NCBI RefSeq assembly: GCF_000179595.2
Contig: NZ_JH556658.1
Location: 1-64,000 of the forward strand
DNA length: 64,000 nucleotides
Origin: Acetivibrio cellulolyticus CD2
GTDB lineage: Bacteria; Bacillota; Clostridia; Acetivibrionales; Acetivibrionaceae
Reading direction: 5' to 3'
The notes under the pieces are model-generated. The model searched no databases. It was given only the letters and a program-made list of their open reading frames with translations, and was not told the DNA's origin. The position numbers were made by a program, and so were the translations under genes. Position 1 is the stretch's first letter; each line of letters begins with the position of its first letter. Positions 46,110-64,000 of this stretch are shown here, piece by piece.

Positions 46110-46110
46110 A

Positions 46111-46141: not shown

Positions 46142-46142
46142 G

Positions 46143-46974: not shown

Positions 46975-46980
46975 TGATAA

Positions 46981-47421: not shown

Positions 47422-47447
47422 CAATGAGGAATACATAGGAGGACGTT

Positions 47448-47756: not shown

Positions 47757-47849
47757 AAATTATCTAAATGTAAAAGGTGTTAAAAAGTTTTCTAGAGCAA
47801 TGGTATAAAAGCTAAAGAAGAATACACATATGGAAGGCGGTGTGGCTAC

Positions 47850-49424
47850 ATGCCCGAGGTATTATCAAAACTTCAACAGCGTATAACAGAACTATGGAAG
47901 AATCTTGACAAATCTCAAAAGGGCAGAATCTATGTAATATCTGCTATACTTGTTATAGCTATAACGGTAAGCATAGTAATGCTGACACGTACTACATATG
48001 TTCCGCTAGTAACAATTGATGATACAAAGGATGCAGCTGAAATTGAAAAGGTATTGCAGGATAAGGGCATTAATTACAAGCCTGGTGAAGGAAACAAGAT
48101 TTTAGTCGACTCAAAGGAAAAAAATAAGGCGGAATTTGCGCTGGCATCATCAGGGTTTACCTCATCAGGAATGAACTTTGAAGATGCGTGGAATCTTGTA
48201 AGTATAACTTCAACCGAAAGTGATAAAAAACAACTTTGGGAGAATTTTAAAAAGAACAGTCTTGTTGCTAAACTTAAGATGTTTGACAATGTTAGAGACG
48301 CTGACATTGAAGTTACTATGCCTAAAGATTCCTTGTTTTTTGATGATACATCAAGTGACAAGGCTACTGCTTTTGTAAGGATTGATCCTAAAGGTGAGAT
48401 TACTTCTGAACAGGTAAAAGGGATAGTAAGTGTTGTTTCAGCATCCATTGATGGCCTTGATCCAAAAGATGTAACTGTTGTCGATAATAACTTCAATATA
48501 TTGAGTACGGATGCTTCAGATGCGATAGGAGATACCTCTACGCAATACAAGATGAAGCTGAAAGTTAAGCAAGAGCTTGAGAAAAATATCAAGGTATTGT
48601 ATCCAAATAAGTCAAGTAGTTATGACTACATAAGTGTAGTAGTAAACCCTGTTTTGGAGTTTGATAAGCAAAAAACTACGAAAAAAGAAGTGGGAAAACC
48701 TAACGACATTGATGAGGCGGTAGTGAGCAGTCATACGGAAAAGGAAGAACTTGTAAATGGCGCTAATGGTGGGGTACCCGGCACAGACAGTAATCCTGGA
48801 AACGGAACTACTACATACCCGATACAGGCAGGTGATAACTCCACTTACAATAAGACAACAACTGATATAAACAGACAATTTAACGAAACAATGACAGAAG
48901 TGGAAAAAGCGCAGGGAGATATAAATTTTGACCAGTCATCAGTTGCTGTGACACTTTGGTATGGACAAAAGGTAGCTGACGATAGTGCAATAACTCCTGA
49001 ATTCTTGGCTCAATGCCAACAGGTGATAAGTGGTGCTACAAACATACCTGTTTCAAAGATATCCATAAACAAATACAAACTTGCGCCTGAAGAAGTTTAT
49101 ACGGAGCCTTTGTCTGACAAGATTCAACAGTATATAGAAGATTACGGATATTTTGCATTAATGCTTATGCTGATAATAGGACTGCTGATTGCAGTGATAC
49201 CAAGAAAAAAGAAGGAAGCAGCAGCAGTGGGAGAAATGCTTTCACCGGAACTTGCAACTGCAAGCGGACCGCAGTTTATTGTTCCTGAGGATGAAGAACC
49301 TGTGCCTGAAATAAGTTATGAGGAAAAATCAGAAGTCAAGAAGCAGATAGAGCGGTTTGTTAAGGAGAAACCTGAATCAGTTGCTCAGCTGCTAAGAAAT
49401 TGGCTTTCGGATGATTGGGATTGA
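47850..49424 (+). CDS. fliF: Flagellar MS-ring protein FliF
   Basis: A 524-residue inner-membrane ring protein. Two transmembrane helices (about 25-44 and 430-449) flank the periplasmic-type ring-building motifs (VLQDKGINYKPGEG, ASSGFTSSGMNFEDAW, DIEVTMP). A Gly/Asn/Thr-rich loop is present (about 305-340), and the cytoplasmic C-terminus (SVAQLLRNWLSDDWD) is the FliG-binding end. Ninety-odd nucleotides after fliE, with GGAAGGCGG upstream. Confidence 0.95.
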   Translation: MPEVLSKLQQRITELWKNLDKSQKGRIYVISAILVIAITVSIVMLTRTTYVPLVTIDDTKDAAEIEKVLQDKGINYKPGEGNKILVDSKEKNKAEFALASSGFTSSGMNFEDAWNLVSITSTESDKKQLWENFKKNSLVAKLKMFDNVRDADIEVTMPKDSLFFDDTSSDKATAFVRIDPKGEITSEQVKGIVSVVSASIDGLDPKDVTVVDNNFNILSTDASDAIGDTSTQYKMKLKVKQELEKNIKVLYPNKSSSYDYISVVVNPVLEFDKQKTTKKEVGKPNDIDEAVVSSHTEKEELVNGANGGVPGTDSNPGNGTTTYPIQAGDNSTYNKTTTDINRQFNETMTEVEKAQGDINFDQSSVAVTLWYGQKVADDSAITPEFLAQCQQVISGATNIPVSKISINKYKLAPEEVYTEPLSDKIQQYIEDYGYFALMLMLIIGLLIAVIPRKKKEAAAVGEMLSPELATASGPQFIVPEDEEPVPEISYEEKSEVKKQIERFVKEKPESVAQLLRNWLSDDWD

Positions 49425-49533
49425 TGTGGTATATGATGTATGCTGTAAAATGCGAAAATTATTAGCGTGAATTTTGTTATGAGGAGCAATAAGTAATCCT
49501 AAAGAATACTAAAGAGCAAGGGGGGAGTAAGCA

Positions 49534-50559
49534 GTGAGTAGAAGCACAGGCGGATTCAAATCGGATATTACAGGTAAAGAAAAAGCTGCAATGCTGCTTA
49601 TTGCATTGGGGCCTGAAAGATCTGCCGAAATATTTAAACATCTTAAAGACGAAGAAATAGAGCAGCTTACTTTGGAGATTGCCAATATAAGAACTGTAAC
49701 ACCGGAAGAAAAGGAAAAGGTTCTTGAGGAATTCTATCAGATTTGTCTTGCTCAGGATTATATAGCTGAAGGTGGTATTTCCTATGCTAAAGAAATACTT
49801 GAAAAGGCATTGGGTACTCAGAAAGCTCTTGATGTTTTGAACAAGCTTACAGTTTCATTGCAGGTAAGACCATTTGACTTCGTAAGAAAAGCGGATCCGT
49901 CGCAGCTTCTAAACTTTATACAGAACGAGCATCCGCAGACTATAGCTCTGATATTGGCATATTTGAAACCCCAGCAATCATCCATCGTATTATCTGCTCT
50001 TCCTCAGGAAAAGCAGGCAGATGTTGCAAGAAGAATTGCAACGATGGACCGAACTTCACCTGAAGTTATAAAAGAAGTGGAAAGAGTACTGGAAAAGAAA
50101 CTGTCTGCTCTTGTAACCGAAGACTTTACTGCAGCAGGCGGTGTACAGGCTATAGTTGATATATTGAACAGTGTTGACAGGGGAACAGAAAAATATATTA
50201 TGGAAACACTTGAAATCGAGGATACTGACCTTGCAGAGGAAATTAAGAAAAGAATGTTTGTCTTCGAAGATATACTTTCACTCGACAACCGTTCTATACA
50301 AAGGTTCCTGCGTGAAGTTGACAATAATCAGATGTCTGTTGCACTAAAAGGAAGTACTGAGGAAGTGCAGAACAAGATTTTTGCAAACATGTCCAAACGT
50401 ATGCAGGAAATGATCAAAGAGGACATCGATTTCATGGGGCCTGTTAGACTTAAGGATGTTGAAGAGGCGCAGCAGAAGGTGGTTAATGTAATAAGGAAGC
50501 TTGAAGATGCAGGCGAAATAGTAATCTCTAGAGGTGGGGGAGATGAAATAATTGTATAA
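49534..50559 (+). CDS. fliG: Flagellar motor switch protein FliG
   Basis: A 341-residue rotor protein that contacts FliF, FliM and the stator. N-terminal domain (KAAMLLIALGPERSAEIFKHL), middle EHPQTIALILAYL (the EHPQ motif, about 130) and C-terminal charged helix (FEDILSLDNRSIQRFLREVD, about 238-257) for torque generation. GTG start with GGGGGGAG upstream. Its 3' end overlaps fliH by 8 nt. Confidence 0.96.
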   Translation: MSRSTGGFKSDITGKEKAAMLLIALGPERSAEIFKHLKDEEIEQLTLEIANIRTVTPEEKEKVLEEFYQICLAQDYIAEGGISYAKEILEKALGTQKALDVLNKLTVSLQVRPFDFVRKADPSQLLNFIQNEHPQTIALILAYLKPQQSSIVLSALPQEKQADVARRIATMDRTSPEVIKEVERVLEKKLSALVTEDFTAAGGVQAIVDILNSVDRGTEKYIMETLEIEDTDLAEEIKKRMFVFEDILSLDNRSIQRFLREVDNNQMSVALKGSTEEVQNKIFANMSKRMQEMIKEDIDFMGPVRLKDVEEAQQKVVNVIRKLEDAGEIVISRGGGDEIIV

Positions 50560-51331
50560 CAAAATATTTAAGAGCGACCAGGTAAGTGTAGGTATTCCTG
50601 TCCAGATAAGAGCACCTATCAGTTTTCAGACAATAAAGATGGCTTACAAACCTGAGATGCTAGAAGATAACGAGGAACCGGAAAAGGATATGGAAGACCT
50701 TGAAGAATACAACAGAAAAACCTCAGAAGACATTATAAAAAAAGCAAGTGAGGAAGCAGAGATAATAATTAAAGAGGCTGAATTTGAAGCAAAAAGAATT
50801 CTTGATGCTGCTGAAAATGAGGCGTTTGAAAAGACGCAGATAATAGAAGATGAGGCGAAGCAGAGAGGTTTTGAAGCTGGTTATGAAGAAGCAAAAAGGC
50901 TGTATGAGGACCTGCTATCTGAGGCAGAGTATGTTAAAGAACATGCTAAAATGGAATACAGTGAAGTGATGGCAGGTATGGAAAAGGATGCCTTAGAATT
51001 AATAATGGATGTAGCAAAAAAAGTAATAGGTTCAGAGGTTTCCTTAAATAAGGAAATCCTTTTAACAATGGTTAGGCAAGCGTTGGAAAAATGTTCGAAC
51101 AGGGAAGATTTAACAATAAAAGTTTCGTCCCAGGATTATGATTTTCTTGTAGAGAATAAGGAAAAGCTGCTTTCTATGATAGATGGTGTGGGGAATCTTG
51201 ATATAAAAAGAGATCCGGCATTAAAAACTGGAGACTGCTTAGTCGAAACATCATATGGAAATATAGATGCTGGAGTTCAGACAAAGATCAGGAAAATCGA
51301 AGAAGCTTTTTTAAAGATAGTTGGAAAATAA
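50552..51331 (+). CDS. fliH: Flagellar assembly protein FliH
   Basis: A 259-residue regulator of the FliI export ATPase. A long Glu/Ala/Lys-rich coiled coil (about 50-130) is followed by a C-terminal globular domain (about 135-255, DPALKTGDCLVETSYGNIDAGV near the end). The TTG start lies in the end of fliG, about 8 nt after GGGGGAG. The gap to fliI (147 nt) contains a short terminator-like hairpin. Confidence 0.92.
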   Translation: MYNKIFKSDQVSVGIPVQIRAPISFQTIKMAYKPEMLEDNEEPEKDMEDLEEYNRKTSEDIIKKASEEAEIIIKEAEFEAKRILDAAENEAFEKTQIIEDEAKQRGFEAGYEEAKRLYEDLLSEAEYVKEHAKMEYSEVMAGMEKDALELIMDVAKKVIGSEVSLNKEILLTMVRQALEKCSNREDLTIKVSSQDYDFLVENKEKLLSMIDGVGNLDIKRDPALKTGDCLVETSYGNIDAGVQTKIRKIEEAFLKIVGK

Positions 51332-51379
51332 CTTTTTTGATGCCAGAAATAAATGAACTTTCTTAGATATTAAACAGTT

Positions 51380-51399
51380 GTGGCATTAGCCACGTTTTT
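51380..51399 (+). terminator. Weak hairpin with U-tract between fliH and fliI
   Basis: GTGGC (51380-51384) pairs with GCCAC (51389-51393), followed by GTTTTTTGT. Only 5 bp, so at most a partial terminator that could lower fliI expression relative to fliH. Confidence 0.4.
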
Positions 51400-51478
51400 T
51401 GTATTAAGGAGTTTCCTAATGTAAATGTCCTGAAATCGAGCGGGCTAAGTTTATTTGAGATTTTTAATGGGGGTTAAT

Positions 51479-52795
51479 ATGCAAAGCATTGACTTTAGCA
51501 AATATAAAGAAATACTTGCAAAATCGGATTTTATAGAATACAACGGAAAAGTGTCAAAAATTGTAGGGCTGACAATTGAATCGAATGGCCCCGAAGTTAA
51601 TATGGGCGAGGTTTGTGAGATCCATGCCTTAAAAGATAAAACCAGAATTAAGTCAGAAGTGGTTGGGTTTAGGGATAATAAAGTGATCCTTATGCCACTT
51701 GGGGATATGACTGGAATAGGACCTGGGAGCACAGTTGTAGCCACAGGGGAATACTTAAGTGCTGCTGTGGGGAATTGTATGGTTGGCAGGGTAATAGATG
51801 GACTTGGCAATCCTATAGACGGGAAAGGTGATCTCAAGGTTGAGACATCTTATCCTGTAAATAATGATCCTCCTCATCCGTTAATGAGAAACCGTATAAA
51901 TGACCCGCTGCCGCTTGGAGTTAAGACAATAGATGGTTTGCTTACGATTGGTAAAGGTCAGAGAGTTGGCATATTTGCAGGCAGTGGTGTTGGTAAGAGT
52001 ACTTTGATAGGTATGATAGCAAGAAATACTAAAGCTGACATAAATGTAATTGCACTTATTGGAGAGCGAGGAAGGGAAGTTAGGGAGTTTATCGAGAAAG
52101 ATCTTAAGGAAGAGGGATTAAGCAGGTCAGTTGTTGTTGTAGCTACATCTGATCAACCTGCCTTAGTGAGGCTTAAAGGGGCATTTATAGCTACAGCTAT
52201 AGCGGAGTACTTCAGAGACCAAGGAAAAGATGTGCTTTTGCTTATGGATTCTTTGACAAGGTTTGCAATGGCTCAAAGAGAGATTGGTTTGGCTGTTGGT
52301 GAGCCTCCGGTATCAAGGGGTTATACACCTTCAGTGTTTTCATCCATGCCAAAACTACTTGAAAGGGCTGGTAATTCCCAATCAGGTTCAATTACGGGAC
52401 TGTATACTGTTCTTGTAGATGGTGATGACCTGACGGAGCCCGTAACAGATACAGCGAGGGGAATACTTGATGGTCATATTGTATTATCAAGGGCATTAGC
52501 AAATAGGAACCAGTACCCTGCGATAGATGTGCTGGCAAGTGTAAGCAGGGTTATGTCAGATATAGTAACAAGTGAGCATAAGAAGATTGCAAACCAGATG
52601 AAGAAAGTTATGGCAATTCACAGGGATGCTGAAGACCTTATCAATATTGGAGCTTATGTAAAGGGAAGTAATGAAAAGATTGACTATGCAATAGCACATA
52701 TCGACAAAATACTTGAATTTATCGAACAGGGAACCCACGACAATTATAGTTTTGATGAGGTTGTTGAATTGCTTGATAACGTATTTAAGAACTAA
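51479..52795 (+). CDS. fliI: Flagellum-specific ATPase FliI
   Basis: A 438-residue F1-beta-like ATPase driving type III export. Walker A GIFAGSGVGKSTL (about residues 161-173), Walker B LLLMDSLTRFAMAQREI, and the export-specific GEPPVSRGYTPSVFSSMPKLLERAG and HRDAEDLINIGAYVKGSNEKID stretches. The start at 51479 has ATGGGGG just upstream; the frame from 51455 is excluded for lack of a site. Confidence 0.96.
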   Translation: MQSIDFSKYKEILAKSDFIEYNGKVSKIVGLTIESNGPEVNMGEVCEIHALKDKTRIKSEVVGFRDNKVILMPLGDMTGIGPGSTVVATGEYLSAAVGNCMVGRVIDGLGNPIDGKGDLKVETSYPVNNDPPHPLMRNRINDPLPLGVKTIDGLLTIGKGQRVGIFAGSGVGKSTLIGMIARNTKADINVIALIGERGREVREFIEKDLKEEGLSRSVVVVATSDQPALVRLKGAFIATAIAEYFRDQGKDVLLLMDSLTRFAMAQREIGLAVGEPPVSRGYTPSVFSSMPKLLERAGNSQSGSITGLYTVLVDGDDLTEPVTDTARGILDGHIVLSRALANRNQYPAIDVLASVSRVMSDIVTSEHKKIANQMKKVMAIHRDAEDLINIGAYVKGSNEKIDYAIAHIDKILEFIEQGTHDNYSFDEVVELLDNVFKN

Positions 52796-52903
52796 TAGGT
52801 GAAATTTACGTTATGGGGCAAAAGAAAGGTCTTAAGCAATAGCAAAATTATATTTTATGCATTCTTAATGAAAATAAATCTTGAAAGCCGAAGGTGATTT
52901 GGA

Positions 52904-53347
52904 GTGGGTAAATTTGTTTTTAAACTCCAGGCTGTTCTCAACTTGAAAAAGCAGATTGAAAACAACGCGAAAAATGAGCTGGGAAAAGCTGTGCAGGAGT
53001 TGGAGAGACAAAAAAACATTCTAAAGGAAATTGAAGCTGAGAGAGATGAGTACATTGGAGAGATAAACAGCAAATCCAGCTCAGGCATTTCTATAGGAAA
53101 ATTAAAAGAATACAGTTCATACATATCACTTTTGAAAGATAGGATAGAGCATCAGAAAAATAATATAAAGCGTGCGCAAAAATCTGTCGATAAGTATAGA
53201 GAACAGCTTATTATTGCTGTCCAGGAAAGAAAAATGATGGAAAAGTTAAGGGAAAAGAAGTATGAGGAGTATATGAAGGAGCAGCAGAAGGAGGAACAAA
53301 AGGTAATTGATGAAATTGCTAGTTTTAAATACACGTCACAGCCATAG
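52904..53347 (+). CDS. fliJ: Flagellar export chaperone FliJ
   Basis: A 147-residue, almost wholly coiled-coil protein (Lys/Glu/Gln-rich), the gamma-like stalk of the export ATPase. The N-terminal FKLQAVLNLKKQIENNAK is the FliJ signature. GTG start with AAGGTG seven nucleotides upstream. Position between fliI and ylxF/fliK is the usual one. Confidence 0.9.
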   Translation: MGKFVFKLQAVLNLKKQIENNAKNELGKAVQELERQKNILKEIEAERDEYIGEINSKSSSGISIGKLKEYSSYISLLKDRIEHQKNNIKRAQKSVDKYREQLIIAVQERKMMEKLREKKYEEYMKEQQKEEQKVIDEIASFKYTSQP

Positions 53348-53382
53348 TTGCAATTAAACTAAGAATGACAGGAGACATAAAA

Positions 53383-54207
53383 ATGGCTAAAGTTAAAAAT
53401 GAAGAGGTTTTAAAAGAGCCCAAAACGCAAGGAAGCGAAGATGAACCGAAAAAGGATAAAAAAAAGGGTGGTTTATTATTTGCTATACTTGCGTTGATTA
53501 CTGCATTGGCTATTATGGTCGCTGTAGTAGGAGGGGCTTTTTATCTTATTATGCATAATAATATTAACGGGTTGGCGGACAAGTATGGTGAAAATATAAA
53601 AAATGTACCTCTGTTAAATCGCGCGCTTCCAAGTCCTCCTAATCCTAATGACCCGGCAAACTTTGATCAAAGCAAGCTTTTAAGCTTATACAAACAGTAT
53701 AAAACACAAAATGAAAAGCTTACAAAGCAGTTGGAGGAACTAAAAAAACAGAATGAAGAACTTATAAAATATAAAACGGGAGCGGATAAGCTGACTTCAG
53801 AAAATGAACAAATTAAGTCAGAAACAGAAAAAGAGAAGGCTCAATTGGAAGAATACAAAAAGCAAGTTGATGAGCTTGTGGCAAACGGTGATAAACAGGG
53901 ATTTGCTGATTATTTTGTTAAGGTTAATAGTCAAACTGCCGAAAAAATATATAAGGAAGTAGTAGAAGAACAAAAGGTAGATGAAGGAGCAAAGCAATTC
54001 GCTCAGCTTTACGAAAAGATGGATACCAAATCTTGTGCCAAGATTTTTGAAGGGCTTGGTGAATCGAAGATAGACTTAATATCATATACACTTAAAACAA
54101 TGAAAAAAGATATAGCAGCAGAAATATTAGCAACAATGAGTAAGGATTTTGCAACCAAAGTAACTGAAAAACTTGCAAAGGATTATGGAATCAAGCTTTC
54201 AAATTAA
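53383..54207 (+). CDS. ylxF: YlxF/MotE-like flagellar membrane protein
   Basis: A 274-residue protein. Lys-rich cytoplasmic N-terminus, one transmembrane helix (about 28-58), a coiled coil (about 105-170, TKQLEELKKQNEELIKYK) and a C-terminal helical domain of the MgtE-N type (YEKMDTKSCAKIFEGLGESK, ILATMSKDFATKVTEKL). B. subtilis YlxF sits at the same place between fliJ and fliK. MotE-type proteins act as export or stator chaperones in other bacteria. The role here is by analogy. ATG at 53383 follows AGGAGAC. Confidence 0.82.
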   Translation: MAKVKNEEVLKEPKTQGSEDEPKKDKKKGGLLFAILALITALAIMVAVVGGAFYLIMHNNINGLADKYGENIKNVPLLNRALPSPPNPNDPANFDQSKLLSLYKQYKTQNEKLTKQLEELKKQNEELIKYKTGADKLTSENEQIKSETEKEKAQLEEYKKQVDELVANGDKQGFADYFVKVNSQTAEKIYKEVVEEQKVDEGAKQFAQLYEKMDTKSCAKIFEGLGESKIDLISYTLKTMKKDIAAEILATMSKDFATKVTEKLAKDYGIKLSN

Positions 54208-54251
54208 ATAAGTATAAGTTTCAATCTATCAAAAAAAGGAGGTGAAAAGTA

Positions 54252-55883
54252 ATGGTAACAAAGAGTTTTATTGTAGACTTTCTAGGCAAATCTGCAAGTC
54301 CTTTAACGGAAATCAAGAAGAAAGAGTCAATAAATTCAGCTTCTTATCCAAACTTTATTGATACTCTAAACTCTACAGTCGAAAAGAATTTTGTAAGCAA
54401 AAGTGATCCAAGTGTTCAAAGAAATACTGGCATAAGTTCTGATAAAAAAATTGATAAAAGAAGTACCAAAGGAAATGAGGTAAATGCAAAAGCAGATGCA
54501 TCGGAAAGTAACAGTAAAATAAAAAGTTATAAGGATGCAGTAAAAGAAAATGAACAGGTGTCAGCAAGAAAGGAAGTAAAAAGCTCTGATGGCAAGTCTG
54601 CTGATAATAATGAACATGTTGCGAAGAAGGGTGAGAAAAAAACTGAGACAGTTGAACAAACAGTCATTGAAGAAAGTTTGGCACAGATACTGAATATTAG
54701 TGTTGAAGAACTTAAAAAAGTAATGAGTGCACTTAATATCAGTTCAGAAGAGTTGGTAGATGAGTCAAAAACAGCTGAAATTGCGGGCAAGATATCAGAC
54801 CTTTTTGGATTGAGCAGCGATCAAAAAGCAACCCTTATAAAAATAGCAGAATTTACTGTAAATGAATCAAAAAGCATGGTAAATGAAATGAAAACTCAAG
54901 ATAACGAGCAGGTTAAAGATAGTAATAAGGAGGGTTGGGTTAAGCTTGAGGGCGTTGATGTTGAGGTGGTAGAGACTGATAAAAAAGTACAGCTTAATGA
55001 TGTTGAGGCCTTGGGCAATAAGCTCAAAAAAGTTCTGAACGAACTGGAAAACAAGCTTCAAAACGAACCTGAAAAGCTTTTTGAGGGAATTTCAGATAAA
55101 GTTGAAGAGATTGCTGTAAATGATGTAACGTCAATAACAGCTAAAGGTACAACAGAAACCAAAACGGTTGAAGATGTAAACTTTACACCTTCAGAAGAGA
55201 AGAAGGATGATAAAGTCGCAAAAACTTCCGAAGAATCAGGTAAACCTCAAGAAAAGGAAGCAGATACATCAAGTGACCAGAAAGCAGAAAGAATCGAACT
55301 CAGAAAGGCTGAAACAGACAATACAATTGAGTTGAACACTGAAGATGCCAACAATACTCAATTCGGTAATGTTTTGAACAATCAGCAAATAAAAACGAAT
55401 GGAGCAAGCGAGGTATCCAAATTACAAAATGAAGTTGCTGTATCAAAGAAGGAAATAGTAAGCCAGATTGTCGAAAAGGCGAAAGTCATTTTGACTGATG
55501 AAAAGAGTGAAATGGTAATTGACTTAAAGCCGGATCATCTTGGGAAACTTTCACTTAAGGTTGTTACAGAAAGAGGTGCAGTAGTTGCAAAGTTTGTCGC
55601 CGAAAGCGAACAGGTTAAAGCAGCTATTGAATCAAATATGGACAATCTAAAGGAATCACTTACCAAACAGGGGTTCTCAATTCAGGGTTTCAGTGTATCG
55701 GTTGGTCAGGATTCAAAAAAAGGTTTTGCTGAAGGTTATGAGTTTTCAAAAAACAGTAACAGAGCAGGTAAAGGTGAGAAGGTAGCTGCAACTGGAATGG
55801 TCGGGGTTTCCGCTATTGAGGAAAATCAGCAAAAACTGAACCCTTATATGTTAAACAACAGTAGTATTGACTTAACTGCGTAA
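54252..55883 (+). CDS. fliK: Flagellar hook-length control protein FliK
   Basis: A 543-residue protein. The first about 400 residues are low-complexity (Lys, Glu, Asn, Ser, Thr), as in the secreted ruler part of FliK. The C-terminal Flg_hook domain (about 405-500) has MVIDLKPDHLGKLSLKVVTERG and AKFVAESEQVKAAIESNMDNL, the export-specificity switch. AAAGGAGGTG is a perfect ribosome binding site. The N-terminal part is long compared with many FliK proteins. Confidence 0.92.
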   Translation: MVTKSFIVDFLGKSASPLTEIKKKESINSASYPNFIDTLNSTVEKNFVSKSDPSVQRNTGISSDKKIDKRSTKGNEVNAKADASESNSKIKSYKDAVKENEQVSARKEVKSSDGKSADNNEHVAKKGEKKTETVEQTVIEESLAQILNISVEELKKVMSALNISSEELVDESKTAEIAGKISDLFGLSSDQKATLIKIAEFTVNESKSMVNEMKTQDNEQVKDSNKEGWVKLEGVDVEVVETDKKVQLNDVEALGNKLKKVLNELENKLQNEPEKLFEGISDKVEEIAVNDVTSITAKGTTETKTVEDVNFTPSEEKKDDKVAKTSEESGKPQEKEADTSSDQKAERIELRKAETDNTIELNTEDANNTQFGNVLNNQQIKTNGASEVSKLQNEVAVSKKEIVSQIVEKAKVILTDEKSEMVIDLKPDHLGKLSLKVVTERGAVVAKFVAESEQVKAAIESNMDNLKESLTKQGFSIQGFSVSVGQDSKKGFAEGYEFSKNSNRAGKGEKVAATGMVGVSAIEENQQKLNPYMLNNSSIDLTA

Positions 55884-55922
55884 GAGTGTAAAAGTATCCT
55901 AAAGAATGGAGGTTGAAGAATT

Positions 55923-56816
55923 TTGAGTGTAAGTTCAGTAAGTAATCAAAAGACAATTCAGCAAATAATTGATGATACTTCAGCTACAAAAGCTTCAGAA
56001 CGAAATACAGGTGAGCTTGGAAAAGATGAATTTATAAATCTTTTAGTTACACAGCTCCAATATCAGGATCCGCTTAACCCTCAGGATGATACACAATTTA
56101 TCGCGCAAATGGCACAGTTCAGTGCGCTTGAACAGATGCAGAATTTGAATACCAGTTACTCTGCAACTCAAGCCTTCGGCATGATTGGAAAAACTGTTAC
56201 TGCAAATCTTAAAGATGGTGATTCAAGTAAGACAAATACCATAACCGGCGAAGTTACCAGCGTTAAAATGCAGAGCGGTAAAGCTTACGTAATTGTAAAC
56301 GGTAACGATATACCTGTTGAAAATGTGCAGGAGGTTAAGGACGGCAGTCAGCTTAATGTTACAAATCTATCAGAGTATACAGGGCTTATTGGGTATGAAT
56401 GCGGTGGCTATGTTTATGATTCGGATTCCGGATCAATTGTCGGAGTTAAAGGTGTTGTAAAAGAGATTAACAAAGGTGCATATGAAAACTATGCTGTAAT
56501 GGATGGAGTAACTGTTAATGTAGCTGCTGTTGACAGCGGATCTGCTACTGTAAATTCCAAGTACAAAGAAGAATATCTTAAAAATAGTAAAGGCCAGGAA
56601 GTATCATTGATAATATCTGATGATTCAGGAAAACAGGCTTCCGTGAAAGCAGTTCTTAATGATTACAGCGTGTCCTCTGATGGCAGAATAAAGGCAGTAC
56701 TTGATGGTTTAAATGTTTCGGTTGACGGTATTACAAACATAAAGCCAGCAAAGACTGAAAGCGATGATACGAGCAGCAGTGAAACGCGAGATGCAGATAA
56801 TAGCGAAACTGTATAG
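55923..56816 (+). CDS. flgD: Flagellar hook cap protein FlgD
   Basis: A 297-residue hook assembly cap. The N-terminal segment LGKDEFINLLVTQLQYQDPL followed by PQDDTQFIAQMAQFSALEQM is the FlgD signature. The central part (about 75-130) is a FlgD-type SH3/Tudor-like region. The C-terminal half with repeated beta strands (VDGVTVNV, LNDYSVSSDGRIKAVLDGL) extends beyond the usual size of about 220. TTG start with GGAGG upstream. Confidence 0.9.
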   Translation: MSVSSVSNQKTIQQIIDDTSATKASERNTGELGKDEFINLLVTQLQYQDPLNPQDDTQFIAQMAQFSALEQMQNLNTSYSATQAFGMIGKTVTANLKDGDSSKTNTITGEVTSVKMQSGKAYVIVNGNDIPVENVQEVKDGSQLNVTNLSEYTGLIGYECGGYVYDSDSGSIVGVKGVVKEINKGAYENYAVMDGVTVNVAAVDSGSATVNSKYKEEYLKNSKGQEVSLIISDDSGKQASVKAVLNDYSVSSDGRIKAVLDGLNVSVDGITNIKPAKTESDDTSSSETRDADNSETV

Positions 56817-56833
56817 ATTAAGGCGGTGATGCT

Positions 56834-57226
56834 ATGATAATTAATAACAACATGTACAATCACCTGAATAAAGTTTCGGGGGGCGGGCTCAACAATCCCA
56901 CAGTCAATAAACCGAAAGAAAATGCTCAAAGTAGCTTTGATGAGATTTTAAAGGGAAAGATAAATGAAACTTCGGATATCAAATTTTCAAAGCATGCTCA
57001 GATGAGACTTGAGACAAGAAATATCAAGATTTCCGATGCTCAAAAGCAGAAGATCTCAAAAGCTTTGGACAAAGCTGAGGAGAAGGGTGTAAAAGACTCT
57101 TTGGTAATGGTTGATGATATAGCCCTGGTAGTGAACGTAAAGAACAGGACAGTAATAACTGCAGTAAATAGTAATGAGCTTAAGGAAAATGTATTTACCA
57201 ATATTGATGGTGCTGTATTTACTTAG
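56834..57226 (+). CDS. Flagellar operon protein (flg_new family)
   Basis: A 130-residue protein of the TIGR02530-type flagellar operon family, always encoded next to flgD/flgE in Clostridia and Bacilli. The core is DIKFSKHAQMRLETRNIKIS (about 48-67) and VKNRTVITAVNSNELKENVFTNIDGAVF at the end. Function is not established. It starts 18 nt after flgD with AAGGCGGTG upstream. Confidence 0.88.
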   Translation: MIINNNMYNHLNKVSGGGLNNPTVNKPKENAQSSFDEILKGKINETSDIKFSKHAQMRLETRNIKISDAQKQKISKALDKAEEKGVKDSLVMVDDIALVVNVKNRTVITAVNSNELKENVFTNIDGAVFT

Positions 57227-57242
57227 TACTTTGTGGTTTGAG

Positions 57243-57270
57243 TAAACAAATTAAGTAAACAAGCCGATAT
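57243..57270 (+). promoter_or_regulatory. Sigma-D (sigma-28) promoter upstream of flgE
   Basis: TAAA (57243-57246), a 16-nt spacer, and GCCGATAT (57263-57270), matching the B. subtilis sigma-D consensus TAAA-N14-16-GCCGATAT in every position. It lies in the gap between flg_new and flgE, about 100 nt before the flgE ATG. Confidence 0.8.
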
Positions 57271-57277
57271 AAATAAT

Positions 57278-57370
57278 GATAAAGCAGTTTTGTAGCCGGA
57301 CCCTTTCGGGAGGCTACCTATTCCGGACTGACAGAAGGAATAGAGGGACTCAAAGGAGGTCGATAGATTT
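57278..57370 (+). promoter_or_regulatory. Two-hairpin leader of flgE with GGA motifs (CsrA-type candidate)
   Basis: Hairpin 1: GTAGCC (57292-57297) with GGCTAC (57312-57317), containing an inner CCC/GGG stem. Hairpin 2: CTATTCC (57318-57324) with GGAATAG (57337-57343), with GGA in the 12-nt loop (57325-57327). The ribosome binding site AAAGGAGGT (57352-57360) adds another GGA. The arrangement of a GGA in a hairpin loop plus one in the Shine-Dalgarno resembles the CsrA-controlled flagellin leader of B. subtilis. No U-tract follows, so it is not a terminator. Confidence 0.5.
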
Positions 57371-58690
57371 ATGATGAGATCAATGTTTTCAGGTGTTTCT
57401 GGTTTGCGTGCACACCAGACCAAGATGGACGTAATCGGTAACAACGTTGCCAACGTAAATACTGTTGCATACAAGTCTGGAAGAGTGACTTTCCAGGAAG
57501 TGTTCAGTCAAACTATAAAAGGCGCGGGTGCACCCGATACTGCTACAGGCCGCGGAGGAACAAACCCGATGCAGGTAGGTTTGGGTATTGGTGTTAGCTC
57601 TGTTGATACAATTACAACGAGAGGTAGCTTGCAAAGAACCGACAATCCTACTGATTTGGCTATTGAAGGCGATGGTTTTTTCATTGTAAAGGGCGGAAGT
57701 GCTGATACATATCGTTTTACAAGAGCCGGCAATTTTGGCATTGATAAGACAGGAAACCTGGTAACAGGAAGCGGAATGAATGTTTACGGATGGCAGGCTT
57801 ATACCAGAGAAACCGATGGAACATATAATTATGACACCGAAAATCCTATTGAGCCTATAAACCTTTATTCGGATATTCCAAACAAAAATAAGAGAATGAT
57901 AGCTGCAAAGGCTACTACTTCGTCTGTTTTTGCCGGTAACCTTGATGCTTCATACGAATCATTAGGAAGCGGAGCTTCAGCAGGAAATGTACAGTTTAGT
58001 GTTCCAATGACGGTTTATGACTCTTTGGGTAATTCTTACAGTATAAATGTAGATTTGTGGAAAATATCCGTTGGCAGCAGCGGTAGTGAATGGAATTGGG
58101 CTATTGACACAGGTTCGGGATCAACAGCATCATCTGCCAGCGGAACAATTTCGTTTGACAGTGAAGGTCAGATAATAGCTTCAGGGACCTCCGTAAATCC
58201 TGCTATATCCATAATTCCGCCAGAAAGTGTAGGCTCAGAGCCGATAGATGTATTATTTGATTTCTCAAAACTTACAATGTATTCCGCTGACAGTTCGGCA
58301 AAACCTACAAGTGTTGACGGTTATTCCACAGGAACGCTTGTAAGTTTTAGCATAGGTTCGGATGGAATAATAACGGGTATATACAGCAATGGACAGCAGC
58401 AGCCTTTAGGATTAATTGCACTGGCAAGTTTTGAAAACCCTGCAGGTCTCCAGAAGTCAGGTAATAATATGTTTATACCTACAACGAACTCAGGCGATTT
58501 CAAGAAAGGTGTAAAGGCAGGGTCTGAAGGAGTTGGAACCTTAAATCCAGGTACACTTGAAATGTCAAATGTTGACCTATCTACTGAATTTACTGATATG
58601 ATAGTGACCCAGAGAGGTTTCCAGGCAAATAGCAGAATAATTACAACATCTGATGAAATGCTGCAGGAATTGGTTAACTTAAAGAGATAA
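57371..58690 (+). CDS. flgE: Flagellar hook protein FlgE
   Basis: A 439-residue axial protein exported to form the hook. N-terminal signature RAHQTKMDVIGNNVANVNTVAYKSGR (about 12-37), FQEVFSQT, the D1/D2 domains, and the C-terminal GTLEMSNVDLSTEFTDMIVTQRGFQANSRIITTSDEMLQELVNL, all typical of FlgE/FlgG-type hook proteins. Length is normal. AAAGGAGG lies 11 nt upstream of the first of two ATGs. It appears to be a separate transcription unit, with its own sigma-D promoter and terminator. Confidence 0.94.
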   Translation: MMRSMFSGVSGLRAHQTKMDVIGNNVANVNTVAYKSGRVTFQEVFSQTIKGAGAPDTATGRGGTNPMQVGLGIGVSSVDTITTRGSLQRTDNPTDLAIEGDGFFIVKGGSADTYRFTRAGNFGIDKTGNLVTGSGMNVYGWQAYTRETDGTYNYDTENPIEPINLYSDIPNKNKRMIAAKATTSSVFAGNLDASYESLGSGASAGNVQFSVPMTVYDSLGNSYSINVDLWKISVGSSGSEWNWAIDTGSGSTASSASGTISFDSEGQIIASGTSVNPAISIIPPESVGSEPIDVLFDFSKLTMYSADSSAKPTSVDGYSTGTLVSFSIGSDGIITGIYSNGQQQPLGLIALASFENPAGLQKSGNNMFIPTTNSGDFKKGVKAGSEGVGTLNPGTLEMSNVDLSTEFTDMIVTQRGFQANSRIITTSDEMLQELVNLKR

Positions 58691-59036
58691 TTAAGGAATA
58701 GTGCCCCGCAACGTAATTTTTTCTAAGTTATGTGCGGAGCACAAAAAGAGGAAGTTCATTTTTTCATTATGTGTGATTATTAAATTAGTAACATAAAAAA
58801 GTAAAGCGTATAAATTATGTGTTATTCTAAAAAGTTTGTTTCCATAAACAAACTTTTTAGAATATTTGTAATTGGCAAATATTTTTAAAAGAAATTCTAA
58901 TAATTTTAGAGGAATATCCGGGACCTATGAAGAATAAGTAGTAAATCAACACCGATTTATAATAAATTTCAACAAAAAAACTTATATTTTTGCAAAAAAA
59001 ATAAATTTTCTATTGAGTTTTTGAGGTAAAAATATT
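58691..59036. other. Intergenic region after flgE
   Basis: 346 nt. It holds the terminator at 58823-58864 but no ORF. A GAGGTAAA (about 59024) serves as the flbD ribosome binding site. A promoter for flbD and the genes behind it is expected here but was not found. Confidence 0.55.
58823..58864. terminator. Long perfect hairpin terminator after flgE
   Basis: Arms 58823-58841 and 58846-58864 pair perfectly over 19 bp around the loop CCAT. The stem contains AAAAAGTTTGTTT and its complement, so T-tracts are present on either strand. Confidence 0.85.
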
Positions 59037-59237
59037 ATGATTGTATTGACTAAATTAAATGGATCAAAATTTGTCCTAAATAGTGAACTGATTGAAAGTC
59101 TTGAAGGAACACCAGATACTGTTATTTCTACAACGACCGGCAAAAAGATTGTAGTTGCGGAAAATGTTGAAGAAGTAGTCGAAAAAGTAATACAATATAA
59201 AAGGAAAATATTCTGTAATTTATTATCTAATAATTAA
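59037..59237 (+). CDS. flbD: FlbD/SwrD-like flagellar protein
   Basis: A 66-residue protein with the FlbD signature: MIVLTKLNGSKFVLNSELIE and TTGKKIVVAENVEEVVEKV. SwrD of B. subtilis, from the same locus, affects flagellar torque. Complete. In many clostridia motA and motB lie between flbD and fliL; here they do not, and a 190-nt gap takes their place. Confidence 0.9.
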   Translation: MIVLTKLNGSKFVLNSELIESLEGTPDTVISTTTGKKIVVAENVEEVVEKVIQYKRKIFCNLLSNN

Positions 59238-59427
59238 CTGATCTTATGGGAGTTCAATAAAAAAATTGGTTTAATATGTATTGTTACTTACGAGCATTAA
59301 TAAGGGATATTTTTTAAGATATTCTTATCAAGAAGACCATTGATTTAACCTGCTGTTTATTTAAGTTTCAAAGTTATATAGCTGTGCCCGATTGTATAGT
59401 TTTTCTAAGGATAAAGGGGGCATAAAG

Positions 59428-59937
59428 TTGGAGGGTAAAAGTAGTGGTTTTTTCGTTCTTATCGGTATAGTAGCATTTCTTTCATTAGCTCTTGTGTTAT
59501 TGGCAGGATATGTGTTTTTTGTGCGCGGAAGCGATGGTGATAAGGCTGCAGAACCGGAAAAGAAAATAACGGTTCCAAAAGATGATGAATTATCCTTGCA
59601 TCAAATGTTTGATAAAAACATTGCCTTTAATTTGAAGAGCAGTGAAAAAGATACCAGTATTCATATCATTTTAGTTAATCTACAAGTGCAGTATTATACT
59701 AAGTTGGATGGTATTGAGAGTACAACGGTGAAGATTGAATCTAATAAGAGCAAGCTTTCGGAAATGGTAGGTACATATTTCCAGGGTTTGACTATTGATG
59801 ATGTCAAAAAAACAGATGCTAAAGAAAAGGCAAGAGCTGATCTTAAGAAAATGATGAATGATTATTTACTTCAAAATGAAACAATTAATGGTGAACTTGT
59901 TTACAGCATTATATTTGAATATTGGTTCTATCAGTAG
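59428..59937 (+). CDS. fliL: Flagellar basal-body-associated protein FliL
   Basis: A 169-residue single-TM protein (helix at about 6-28, GFFVLIGIVAFLSLALVLLAG) with an outer FliL domain (YTKLDGIESTTVKIE ... LRRMM-like LKKMMNDYLL). It rings the stator unit and supports torque or stator function. Start TTG at 59428 with AAAGGGGG upstream; the frame from 59392 reads over the ribosome binding site. Thirteen nucleotides before fliM. Confidence 0.88.
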   Translation: MEGKSSGFFVLIGIVAFLSLALVLLAGYVFFVRGSDGDKAAEPEKKITVPKDDELSLHQMFDKNIAFNLKSSEKDTSIHIILVNLQVQYYTKLDGIESTTVKIESNKSKLSEMVGTYFQGLTIDDVKKTDAKEKARADLKKMMNDYLLQNETINGELVYSIIFEYWFYQ

Positions 59938-59950
59938 GAGGTGGTTATAA

Positions 59951-60940
59951 ATGGGTGATATTCTATCACAAAATGAAATAGACGAGCTGCTCAAAGCCCT
60001 GAATACTGGAGAAATTGATGTCCAGCATATGACCACAACACCCGAAGAGAAGAAGATAAGAAATCACGATTTTAGAAGGCCGAGCAAGTTTGCCAAGGAC
60101 CATATGAAAACGCTCAATATCATACATGATAACTATGCAAGACTGCTGACAAACTTTTTATCAGGTTATTTAAGGACACTTGTGCAGGTTGCAGTTATTT
60201 CAGTTGAAGCGATAGCATATTATGAATTCAATAATTCAATATCAAATCCGGCAGTACTTGCTATTGTTGATTTTTCTCCCTTATCGGGATCGATTATTTT
60301 TGAGATGGCTCCTCCCATTGCGTATGCATTAATTGATAGGATACTTGGTGGTAAGGGTTCTCCAATGGAAAAGATTAGAGAATTTACTGAGGTTGAACTT
60401 GCCATTATTGAAAGAATTATTATTCAAGTTCTAAACCTTATGAGGGAGCCATGGGAAAATGTTATTGCGATAAGACCAAGGCTTGAAAAAATTGAGACTA
60501 ATGCACAATTTGCCCAGATAATATCTGCAAACGAAATGGTAGCATTAATAACTTTAGGTGCAAAAATAGGCGATGTTGAGGGAATGATTAATATCTGCAT
60601 ACCGCATATGGTGGTTGAACCGATAGTATCAAAACTTAGTACAAAGTTCTGGTTCTCTAATAGTGAGAAAGAGAAAACAAATGAAAGCAAGGATACTATT
60701 GAGCTTAAAATTGAAAATACCAAGGTACCAGTCAGAGCAGTTTTAGGAAGGTCAACAATTCTGGTAAATGACTTTTTGGAGTTGCAGCCAGGGGATGTAA
60801 TACCTTTAGATTCCAGTGTTAGTGGAAATCTTGAAATTTTGGTTGGTGACCTTTTAAAGTTTTATGGCACTCCTGGAGTAAAGAAGAACAGGGTTGCAAT
60901 AAAGGTTAATGAAGTTGTAAGAGGAGAGGAGGAAGAGTAG
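59951..60940 (+). CDS. fliM: Flagellar motor switch protein FliM
   Basis: A 329-residue switch protein of the C-ring. N-terminal CheY-P-binding motif LSQNEIDELLKALN (about 4-17), middle CheC-like domain with MAPPIAYALIDRILGG, and a C-terminal SpoA/FliN-like domain (VPVRAVLGRSTILVNDFLELQPGD). TAGGAGGTGG upstream. fliY begins just 1 nt after its stop. Confidence 0.95.
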   Translation: MGDILSQNEIDELLKALNTGEIDVQHMTTTPEEKKIRNHDFRRPSKFAKDHMKTLNIIHDNYARLLTNFLSGYLRTLVQVAVISVEAIAYYEFNNSISNPAVLAIVDFSPLSGSIIFEMAPPIAYALIDRILGGKGSPMEKIREFTEVELAIIERIIIQVLNLMREPWENVIAIRPRLEKIETNAQFAQIISANEMVALITLGAKIGDVEGMINICIPHMVVEPIVSKLSTKFWFSNSEKEKTNESKDTIELKIENTKVPVRAVLGRSTILVNDFLELQPGDVIPLDSSVSGNLEILVGDLLKFYGTPGVKKNRVAIKVNEVVRGEEEE

Positions 60941-60941
60941 C

Positions 60942-62174
60942 ATGGGTGACATGTTATCGCAGGCTGAAATTGATGCTTTGCTAAATGGAGGATCAATTCC
61001 TGATAGCGGTAGTAATGCCAGTGCTAACGACGGCGAGTCTGAACTTTCAAGTCAGGAAGTTGATGCACTAGGCGAAGTAGGCAATATTAGCATGGGTACA
61101 TCAGCTACTACGCTTTATGCCCTTTTAGGACACAAAGTACTGATTACTACTCCTCAGGTTACTGTATGTTCATGGGAAGAGTTATCAGAACATTACAGAA
61201 CAAATTATGTTGCTGTAAAAATTGAGTATACTGAGGGACTTAATGGTGCAAATCTTCTAGTTCTAAAGGAAAATGATGCAAAAGTAATTACCGACCTTAT
61301 GATGGGTGGTGATGGAAGCAATATTTCAGGAGAACTTACAGATCTTCACTTAAGTGCGATTGGCGAGGCTATGAACCAGATGATTGGTTCAGCGGCAACA
61401 TCAATGTCATCAATGTTTGATAAAAGAGTGGATATATCTCCTCCAAGAGCTTTTTGTATGACATTTGATAACCAGCAGGAAGATGTTTTTCAACCAGAGG
61501 ATAGGTTAGTCAAAATTGCATTCAAGATGGTAATCGGGGAGTTGGTAGATAGTGAGATAATGCAGTTGATACCTTTAAAATTTGCCAAATCTCTTGTTGA
61601 TAACCTTATAAATGCAAATTCAGAAGCTGTTGCGCCACCGCAGAATAATAACAGCAGTGCATCTTCTGTTAAAAATACACCACAGGTACAACCGCCGCCT
61701 CAGCAGCCACAACAGCAGTATACGGAGCAATATCCTCAGCAACAGCAGTATCCACAGCAACAATACCAACAGCAGTATCCACCACAGCAATATCCTCCAA
61801 TGCAGCAGGGGATGGGACAGCCGTTTTATGGACAGGCTCCGCAGGAGCAGGGGAGGTTCAGAGAACCCATTAATGTTCAGCCGGCACAGTTCCAAGCATT
61901 TGATGATGGCATGATATCTTTTGAACGAAAGAATATTGGACTTATAATGGATGTGCCATTGCAGGTCACGGTAGAATTAGGGAGAACCAACAGGCTTATT
62001 AAGGATATTTTGGAATTTGGACCAGGTTCTATAATCGAGTTGGATAAACTGGCAGGTGAGCCCGTAGATATCCTTGTAAACGGTAAAGTGATAGCAAAAG
62101 GGGAAGTTGTTGTAATTGATGAAAGTTTTGGTGTAAGAATTACCGATATTATACATCCTTCAAAGAGGCTTTAG
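60942..62174 (+). CDS. fliY: CheY-P phosphatase/switch protein FliY
   Basis: A 410-residue Gram-positive switch protein. N-terminal CheY-P-binding SQAEIDALLNGG, a CheC-type phosphatase domain with the E-x2-N motif (LGEVGNISMGTSATTLYALL, about 42-61) and a second such motif (AIGEAMNQMIGSA), a Pro/Gln-rich linker (about 228-305, with many QQ and YPQQ), and a C-terminal FliN/SpoA domain (VPLQVTVELGRTNRLIKDILEFGPG). It removes phosphate from CheY-P and completes the C-ring. The linker is unusually long and repetitive. Confidence 0.95.
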   Translation: MGDMLSQAEIDALLNGGSIPDSGSNASANDGESELSSQEVDALGEVGNISMGTSATTLYALLGHKVLITTPQVTVCSWEELSEHYRTNYVAVKIEYTEGLNGANLLVLKENDAKVITDLMMGGDGSNISGELTDLHLSAIGEAMNQMIGSAATSMSSMFDKRVDISPPRAFCMTFDNQQEDVFQPEDRLVKIAFKMVIGELVDSEIMQLIPLKFAKSLVDNLINANSEAVAPPQNNNSSASSVKNTPQVQPPPQQPQQQYTEQYPQQQQYPQQQYQQQYPPQQYPPMQQGMGQPFYGQAPQEQGRFREPINVQPAQFQAFDDGMISFERKNIGLIMDVPLQVTVELGRTNRLIKDILEFGPGSIIELDKLAGEPVDILVNGKVIAKGEVVVIDESFGVRITDIIHPSKRL

Positions 62175-62340
62175 GAATGCCGAAAAGAAAACTTCGGCAA
62201 GAACTTCAGTGCCTCATATCTATTGGTTGGGTGAGTACTTATTGAAATAGCAATCAAAAATTTCAAAATACATTTAGGCATTTTGTTTACAATACCATCC
62301 GGAAGTAGTAAAGACTATAATTTAAGGAGAGGGATATATA

Positions 62341-62703
62341 ATGAGTAAAAAAATTCTAATTGTTGACGACGCAGCGTTTATGAGAATGATGATTAAGGAT
62401 ATCCTTACAAAAAACGGTTATGAAGTTGCTGGTGAGGCTGAAAATGGAGCACGTGCTATCGATAAGTTTAAGGAGTTAACTCCAGACTTGGTAATAATGG
62501 ACATAACTATGCCGGAAGTAGACGGAATAGCAGCTGTTAGAGAAATAAAAAAGATCAATTCTGATTCGAAGATAATAATGTGTTCCGCAATGGGGCAGCA
62601 GGCAATGGTAATTGAGTCTATCCAGGCGGGTGCAAGGGATTTTATTGTAAAGCCATTCCAGGCAGAAAGAGTTGTAGAAGCAGTTAAGAAAGTATTGGGT
62701 TAA
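62341..62703 (+). CDS. cheY: Chemotaxis response regulator CheY
   Basis: A 120-residue receiver domain without output domain. Asp-Asp at 8-9 (VDDAAFMR), phosphoacceptor Asp54 (VIMDITMP), Thr/Ser83 position (MCSAMGQ) and Lys105 (VKPFQA). Phosphorylated by CheA, it binds FliM/FliY to switch rotation. A 165-nt gap after fliY; AAGGAGAGG precedes the ATG. Confidence 0.93.
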   Translation: MSKKILIVDDAAFMRMMIKDILTKNGYEVAGEAENGARAIDKFKELTPDLVIMDITMPEVDGIAAVREIKKINSDSKIIMCSAMGQQAMVIESIQAGARDFIVKPFQAERVVEAVKKVLG

Positions 62704-62756
62704 TACCTGTAACGTAAACAAAACTATAGCTGTTAAAGCTGGACAAGGAGTATCAA

Positions 62757-63263
62757 ATGAGCGGCTTTGGTGACATGCTGATTAGCATTTTTGTGTTTGT
62801 TATTGTTTTTGGCTCGATACTCTTTTTGGCATATGTTACTACCAAGTTTGTTGGTAATAAGTCGGGAAGGGCTATGAAAGGGAAGTATGTCAATATTGTT
62901 GAAACAGTTAGCTTAGGACTCGACAGCAAGCTTCATCTTGTAAAGATTGGCGAAGAATTTGTGCTGATAAGTGCATCGGGTAAGAATGTTCAACTGCTTA
63001 CAAAAGTTGATATGGGGGGCTATACTGAAGAGGAAATTTCAGGTAGTGGAAATTCCTTTGATTTTAAAGAAATTTTTGAAAAGTATATTCAGAACTTTAA
63101 AGGCAAGCAGAGCACTAAGGGAGATGTAAAGTCAGAAGATAGTAGTAGTAACGAGGATAAAAGTTTTCGGCATAATCTTGAAAAATTAAAGACGATAACA
63201 TCAAGAGTAGGAAAGTATGATACCAAAGGCGGAGATGAAAACACTAATGGGAATCAAGGTTAA
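62757..63263 (+). CDS. fliO: Flagellar biosynthesis protein FliO/FliZ
   Basis: A 168-residue protein with one N-terminal transmembrane helix (about 7-29) and a cytoplasmic domain with GKYVNIVETVSLGLDSKLHLVKIGEEFVLI, typical of the FliO/FliZ family that helps assemble FliP. The C-terminus is a charged, low-complexity tail (GDVKSEDSSSNEDKS). It overlaps the start of fliP. Confidence 0.88.
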   Translation: MSGFGDMLISIFVFVIVFGSILFLAYVTTKFVGNKSGRAMKGKYVNIVETVSLGLDSKLHLVKIGEEFVLISASGKNVQLLTKVDMGGYTEEEISGSGNSFDFKEIFEKYIQNFKGKQSTKGDVKSEDSSSNEDKSFRHNLEKLKTITSRVGKYDTKGGDENTNGNQG

Positions 63264-64000
63264 GTACTTTGTAACTGTTACGCTATTACTTATAGTTTTG
63301 GTAGTTCTGGCGTCAAATGTATATGCTGAGCCTGATTTAACGTTGCCCAAAGTTAATGTGAGTGTGGGAACTTCCAATACTCCCGAAGATTTTACTTCAA
63401 GTGTGCAGGTTTTACTGCTGCTGACTGTCTTGTCATTGGCGCCTTCGATATTGATGATGATGACAAGCTTCACGAGGGTAATAATTGTTCTATCTTTTTT
63501 AAGAAATGCTTTGGGAACTCAGCAGATGCCGCCGAATCAAGTGTTGATTGGGCTAGCTTTGTTTTTAACCTTGTTTATAATGAATCCTGTAATTACCGAA
63601 ATAAATGAAACTGCATATAAGCCTTATTCGAATAAGGAAATAACTCAGCAAGTTGCTTTGGAAAGATCATCTAAAACGATTAAGACTTTTATGTTAAAAC
63701 AAACGGAAAAGAAGGATCTTGCATTATTTGTATCGCTTTCGGGAACTAAGACTCCAATAAAAGAGCAAGAAGTGCCAAATCTTCCGCTCACTACAATAAT
63801 TCCTGCTTTTTTGATAAGTGAACTGACAACTGCGTTCAAAATGGGATTTTTAATATATTTACCTTTTCTTGTAATTGATCTGGTTGTTTCAAGTACGTTG
63901 ATGTCTATGGGAATGATGATGCTTTCTCCGGTAATGATTTCACTTCCGTTTAAAATATTGCTTTTTATTATGGTTGGAGGCTGGAATCTTTTATCACAAA
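63247..64000 (+). CDS. fliP: Flagellar export gate protein FliP (3' end outside window)
   Basis: An open frame to the window end, 251 codons visible. Signal peptide-like N-terminus (KYFVTVTLLLIVLVVLAS), then FliP core segments LSLAPSILMMMTSFTRVIIVLSFLRNALG and MPPNQVLIGLALFLTLFIM, and near the edge FKMGFLIYLPFLVIDLVVSSTLMSMGMMMLSP, the hallmark of the type III export gate. The ATG at 63247 has GGCGGAG about 12 nt upstream; an ATG at 63235 in the same frame is possible. It overlaps fliO by 17 nt. A few more residues should follow. Confidence 0.93.
   Translation, partial: MGIKVKYFVTVTLLLIVLVVLASNVYAEPDLTLPKVNVSVGTSNTPEDFTSSVQVLLLLTVLSLAPSILMMMTSFTRVIIVLSFLRNALGTQQMPPNQVLIGLALFLTLFIMNPVITEINETAYKPYSNKEITQQVALERSSKTIKTFMLKQTEKKDLALFVSLSGTKTPIKEQEVPNLPLTTIIPAFLISELTTAFKMGFLIYLPFLVIDLVVSSTLMSMGMMMLSPVMISLPFKILLFIMVGGWNLLSQ

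Follow-up and report, generated by a model that had tools for sequence, protein, structure and literature searches.

Comparative evidence for a conserved two-hairpin leader RNA ahead of the hook gene flgE in Acetivibrio cellulolyticus and other Clostridia

The flgE locus and its leader

The window analyzed here is a stretch of 64,000 nt from Acetivibrio cellulolyticus CD2 (contig NZ_JH556658.1, positions 1 to 64,000, forward strand) that carries a flagellar (fla/che) gene cluster, and within it flgE, the gene for the hook protein, lies behind a small gene of the TIGR02530 family. The initial annotation had described flgE as a sigma-D transcription unit of its own, with a structured leader perhaps under the control of the RNA-binding regulator CsrA. 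Comparison with relatives places the core of the locus elsewhere, not in the promoter or in CsrA but in the leader of about 90 nt, which by its pattern of sequence change is a conserved two-hairpin RNA under covariation ahead of flgE in many Clostridia. The features are as follows.

56834 to 57226, forward strand: TIGR02530/PF12611 gene, 130 amino acids, directly upstream of the leader and a candidate partner for it (TIGR02530, 120.4 bits against a cut-off of 83.2; PF12611 also matches the product)
57243 to 57270, forward strand: sigma-D-type promoter TAAA-N16-GCCGATAT, read from the sequence (TAAA at 57243-57246, GCCGATAT at 57263-57270)
57292 to 57317, forward strand: hairpin P1, from folding and comparison (GUAGCC/GGCUAC, internal loop GGA/A, inner stem CCC/GGG, loop UUUC)
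57318 to 57343, forward strand: hairpin P2, from folding and comparison (CUAUUCC/GGAAUAG, with the conserved 12-nt loop GGACUGACAGAA, a tandem GA...GA)
57355 to 57361, forward strand: Shine-Dalgarno sequence (SD) GGAGGUC, its GGUC complementary to the GACC of P1 at 57299-57302
57371 to 58690, forward strand: flgE, hook protein, 439 amino acids, from sequence and family matches
58701 to 58742, forward strand: hairpin immediately 3' of the flgE stop, its stem interrupted in the window, its position kept in relatives
58823 to 58864, forward strand: 19-pair inverted repeat, terminator-like, with a weak T tail; a similar element lies in the same-genus locus L134

Folding gave the two hairpins that had been predicted, with one GGA opening the 12-nt loop of P2 and another sitting in the internal loop of P1, and the GGA-containing SD is present as described (GGAGGTC in the DNA). 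The flgE transcript would be expected to start near 57277-57279.

Conservation, covariation and distribution of the leader

Folded alone, the leader of the window does no better than shuffles (z -0.55), and given that the promoter pattern by itself is not rare in the genome either, the case rests on comparison. FlgE relatives were taken as the best 80 from named genomes together with loci of the organism's own family, so that the inspected set comprised the window, 80 named loci and 11 family loci, with a few genomes represented twice. The leader was visible in 82 of these 92 flgE upstreams, and was missing from L080, L083, L085, L086, L087, L088, L089, L113, L121 and L124, of which L121 has only 34 nt before flgE; in nine of the named loci leader and TIGR02530 are both absent. 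RNAalifold, run on 41 leaders, returned 13 pairs, 11 of them with double-sided changes. A covariance model of the leader, designated R1, gave 91 matches in 100 sources (690 kb), with none in the same ten leaderless sources.

Across 90 distinct leader rows, in an alignment fitted to R1 itself with the seed included, 96.0% of the cells pair, and changes on both sides occur at 12 of the 13 pairs, including all seven of P2. Double changes were counted in 355 cells; shuffling left 92, and slid versions gave no more than 72. The conservation and covariation that the initial annotation had proposed to look for in relatives were therefore both found. Beyond the stems, P1 has an invariant or nearly invariant G-G-A-C-C and G-G (pattern GGA-CC/GG-A), and the P2 loop has GA, YGA and GA (pattern GA-NYGAYN-GA). 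In L186, L189 and L216 the leader is seemingly split by a repeat-like insertion inside or beside P1, with P2 retained.

In Rfam 15 no family overlapped 57276-57370 at E up to 5 in a scan of window positions 45000-64000, and none matched at the leader in the loci of nine relatives. Termite-flg RNA (RF01729) and flg-Rhizobiales RNA (RF01736) are likewise structured RNAs named for flagellar genes (PMC2864571), and neither was listed in scans of the window stretch or of the nine relatives; the best RF01729 score in the organism's own genome was 17.1 bits against a cut-off of 40, and not at the leader, so that identity with Termite-flg RNA was rejected. Literature searches on an flgE leader or structured RNA found no title describing the leader RNA; the terms flagell-, flgE, motility and hook are absent from the main texts of PMC8040213 and PMC6429828, and the first three from that of PMC2864571. 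We did not find the leader family in Rfam 15 or in the literature searched, which included neither the 224-motif survey (NAR 2017) nor supplements.

We then surveyed 393 genomes of the class, taking an R1 match of at least 26 bits as a strong leader. R1 matched 128 genomes at E 0.01 or better and 118 at the higher threshold, 113 of the latter with a single such match; TIGR02530 was present in 133 genomes and csrA in 135. The strong leader is closely tied to TIGR02530, which was found in 117 of the 118 genomes, csrA being found in 101, and 121 of 137 R1 matches (in 120 genomes) lie on the same strand at -2 to 125 nt behind TIGR02530. Thirteen TIGR02530 genomes lack an adjacent R1 match; eleven of these have a diverged or split leader by eye, that of G114 is degenerate, and in G298 the leader precedes flgE with TIGR02530 behind flgE. 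Sixteen genomes with a FlgE-type protein and no TIGR02530 were initially taken as controls, of which G005 was a fragment and eleven without FlgE_D2 were dropped; the four kept, with a real FlgE and flgD followed directly by flgE, gave no R1 match up to E 1.

Copies of the leader also precede other genes. R1 matches occur in 69 of 150 genomes surveyed in family f29 (taken for Lachnospiraceae), several of which have two to four. Among the extra or weak matches examined, 20 were leader copies before genes other than flgE, in 15 genomes, and five others precede flgE; near-threshold matches outside flgE loci were taken as chance where the locus had no leader, as in L179, where the match lies inside a long open reading frame (ORF). 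Ten proteins encoded behind extra copies matched no Pfam or NCBIfam family over cut-off, with weak sub-cut-off matches to DUF6033 (E 0.0021) and DUF5601 (E 0.00062). One type of extra copy, in f29 and G215 genomes (L197, L198, L199, L200, L201, L203, L208, L177 and L178), has the SD AGAAAGGAG or similar and a P1 with CCUUU(C), and stands before large proteins without a family. Contig C11 of genome G281 (L227, 5066-12300) carries an array of short ORFs that are related to one another, and R1 matches there five times, at 33.8 to 13.5 bits. Many of these ORFs start MSVSGI or MSISGI, with R1 matches before several, and the array adjoins two ORFs that by their sequence look like a LytTR regulator and a sensor kinase.

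Promoter and 3' flank

The sigma-D-type site ahead of flgE is where it had been placed, and its boxes and spacing fall within published forms, the consensus being TAAA-N15-CCGATAT generally with N16-17 in Butyrivibrio (PMC3720852), and TAAA and CG boxes 15-18 apart in C. difficile (PMC3865298). For TAAA, a spacer of 15-17 and CCGATAW it is the sole forward-strand match in the window, with one reverse-strand match at 37937. The argument from chance is weaker than the 0.04 expected matches originally estimated, since a looser two-strand motif is expected 0.47 times per window and TAAA-N14..17-GCCGATAW has 20 matches genome-wide against 14 for the reversed control; with a further comparison of 98 against 102 for the reversed pattern, there was no useful genome-wide enrichment of the sigma-D pattern. 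A sigma-70 scan found no excess of sites (57, with 57.3 expected).

Support for the promoter comes instead from a comparable position in relatives, not from the sequence match alone. The gap from the TIGR02530 stop to the leader is 40 nt or more in 17 of 82 loci, and a sigma-D-like site scoring 9/11 or higher (shuffle p <= 0.017) is present in 11 of these 17, or in 9 of 14 without three duplicates, the other six having none; ten of the eleven sites lie 15-20 nt ahead of the leader, and that of L053 lies 83 nt ahead. We therefore consider a sigma-D promoter just before the leader likely in the A. cellulolyticus lineage. In the remaining 65 loci, however, the gap is under 40 nt and leaves little room for a promoter, which rules out the sigma-D unit as the general state. 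Given that sigD mutation in C. difficile affects hook-basal-body genes only slightly (PMC3865298), sigma-D before flgE appears to be a lineage trait. By eye, the hag gene of the same genome (L001, 1126-1440) shows the classical CsrA-type layout, combining TAAA-N16-ATCGATAT with a GGA hairpin (GGGAAUGGAAUCCC), and R1 did not match its upstream region.

Downstream, the 19-pair hairpin described as a perfect terminator is present, and its region (58690-58890) folds well beyond shuffles (z -7.08), but its T tail is poor. A simple terminator scan of the region gave no excess (9 compared with 10.9 in shuffles), and the hairpin was set aside as a conserved part, given that among relatives only L134 has a similar one with a T run. 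Were it to terminate well, flbD (in the stretch 58865-59036) and the genes behind it would need another promoter.

The ribosome site and candidate readers of the leader

The sequence that follows GGAGG in the SD sets leader-bearing flgE genes apart from their neighbors, being UC in 52 of 78, UU in 12 and UG in none, compared with UC in 4, UU in 5 and UG in 81 of 254 other genes in the same loci (three leaders lack GGAGG, L098 was excluded because its start was misplaced, and relatives were not thinned). The flgE SD is shifted from GGAGGUG to GGAGGUC, the GGUC of which complements the invariant GACC of P1, so that at the level of sequence the two can pair. For the window, the fold that closes the SD lies 6.6 kcal/mol above the P1 fold, and in 12 of 80 leaders the summed probability of the closed pairing exceeds 1.4, the maximum being 3. 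When SD and P1 were permuted among leaders, own pairs did better for flgE leaders and extra copies together (p 0.004) and for the extra copies alone (p 0.023), in which the SD is often AGAAAGGAG and the CCUUUC of P1 is complementary to it; flgE leaders alone gave no signal (p 0.31). A ribosome-site switch is likely on this evidence, and regulation at the level of translation is the most probable mechanism.

Such a switch would have two states, one in which P1 is formed and the ribosome site is free, and another in which GACC and the bases following it pair with the ribosome site and close it. A trans-acting factor recognizing the P2 loop and the internal loop of P1 would set the balance, the best candidate for this factor being the TIGR02530 protein encoded just upstream, and hook protein, needed in many copies, would thereby be made at the right stage. 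In A. cellulolyticus the sigma-D promoter right before the leader would probably add late-class transcription of the same regulated cistron. We read the leader as a new RNA family controlling hook synthesis, and to this explanation as a whole, a conserved cis-acting RNA that governs hook-gene translation through a switch and a trans factor with TIGR02530 as best candidate, we give an even chance of being right. Genome G281 weighs against TIGR02530 as the partner: although estimated to be 100% complete, it has no match to FlhA, TIGR02530 or csrA, and its leader copies precede unknown paralogous genes, so that TIGR02530 cannot be the sole possible reader.

It is unlikely that the leader is a riboswitch, with a small molecule or nucleotide signal opening or closing the flgE ribosome site. 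The compact structure, the invariant loops and the apparent SD switch would fit, as would the copies before genes other than flgE, including those of G281, which imply that something other than a flagellar protein could read the RNA. On the other hand, a near-complete tie to one protein family (117/118) is unusual for a metabolite sensor, the target genes are not metabolic, and no Rfam riboswitch family matches. Cyclic di-GMP and other translational riboswitches of Clostridia likewise have a 5' leader with a possible alternative pairing that closes the SD, the difference being that no Rfam family matches at this leader, and to our knowledge its loops resemble no riboswitch class.

The cell needs more copies of hook protein than of the products of the operon neighbors, and it could be supposed that the leader and the post-stop hairpin bracket flgE as a stabilized segment within the fla/che transcript, with translational control secondary. 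A strong hairpin indeed lies within 100 nt of the flgE stop in 61 of 86 loci, compared with 10 of 499 other genes and none of 86 shuffled sequences, but P1 and P2 show more conservation in their loop bases than a simple stem barrier would call for, the change in the SD is left unexplained, and the window's own hairpin at 58701-58742 fails the test used (score 10, stem interrupted), which makes this account rather improbable. More doubtful again is translational coupling, in which translation of TIGR02530 to its stop would open the leader and couple flgE to it with no need of a trans factor. The leader starts within 2 nt of the TIGR02530 match in 60 of 121 adjacent pairs, so that a terminating ribosome would cover P1, yet the distance is 40 nt or more in 30 of the 121, TIGR02530 lies behind flgE in G298, some leader copies precede genes with no TIGR02530 upstream, and the conservation of the loops is unexplained.

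Least probable by far is the proposal that CsrA restrains hook synthesis by binding to the GGA motifs: csrA is present in the genome, as anticipated, with an adjoining ORF that reads as fliW by eye, six GGA occur in 57271-57370 (2.4 in shuffles, p 0.013), and Acetivibrio-like leaders have a GGA in the P2 loop, but a csrA match is absent from 17 of the 118 strong-leader genomes (five of them flagellated genomes of one genus, with FlhA found, and three of these five single-contig assemblies), the P2-loop GGA occurs in only 28 of 90 distinct leaders, the invariant P1 GGA lies in an internal loop and not in a hairpin loop, where CsrA-regulated leaders expose theirs, and 18 of the 135 csrA genomes, all lacking TIGR02530, show no strong leader. 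The leader-bearing genomes without csrA rule CsrA out as a general partner; binding in A. cellulolyticus alone is possible. The arrangement resembles the CsrA/FliW control of B. subtilis hag (PMC6529632) in combining sigma-D with translational control of a flagellar building block, in the leader GGA and in the involvement of the SD, and differs from it in concerning the hook gene, in its own invariant loops, in its occurrence in genomes without csrA and in the mostly missing sigma-D site directly before the leader. At the start of the fla cluster, 46038-46187 on the forward strand has a weak match to TwoAYGGAY RNA (RF01731, of the CsrA-binding clan; 36.7 bits against a cut-off of 43, E 0.012), upstream of the gene that opens the cluster; a perfect hairpin there encloses AUGGAU. 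This stretch is possibly a CsrA sponge or leader; RF01731 was not detected at E 1 in stretches of six relatives, in only two of which flgB was located.

TIGR02530 is the best, if putative, partner candidate for the leader. Its predicted model has an arrangement resembling that of RelE/ParE/HigB fold proteins, with low confidence before residue 34; Foldseek gave no significant match for the model, and a comparison with the sequences of solved structures found nothing. In early flagellar export substrates the gate recognizes a hydrophobic motif of the form FxxxPhi, some 36 residues from an unstructured N-terminus, and TIGR02530 has FxxxPhi at residue 35 in 69 of 70 sequences, with F35 invariant and L39 nearly so, where any F...[LIVM] occurs in a fraction of 0.42 of shuffled N-termini. 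The corresponding FlgD motif lies at residues 36-40 (PMC8983047), and the N-terminus of TIGR02530 can be called export-signal-like. A literature search on TIGR02530 together with flagellar found no papers. In C. thermocellum, Cthe_0471 to Cthe_0473 (FliK, FlgD and the flagellar operon protein) are tabulated as changing in similar ways, and the table then passes to Cthe_0516 (PMC3880215), which weakly suggests different behavior of the gene behind.

These features would also accommodate an exported RNA-binding regulator, a quite unlikely extension in which the RelE-like domain of TIGR02530 would keep the flgE leader in one of its two folds until, with the rod ready, the export gate took the protein away by way of its N-terminal motif, and translation of the hook gene would then be released (or ended). 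As in the FlgM export checkpoint (for context see PMC6529632), assembly would be coupled to expression through a small regulator that the export gate reads, but TIGR02530 would act on hook translation via RNA and not on a sigma factor. If true, the FlgM checkpoint would have a counterpart at the level of translation, with a toxin-like fold serving as a gene-specific RNA reader, and the leader copies before unknown paralogous genes would form a wider regulon read by TIGR02530 or a similar protein.

Outside a few models, little work has addressed at the level of RNA how the timing and amount of hook production are set. The leader suggests a previously undescribed mode of hook control, probably acting on translation, offers a role to seek for TIGR02530 and flags unknown genes that have the same leader ahead of them; with a leader shared among hook genes and a small conserved protein encoded beside it, the control of hook production becomes directly testable.
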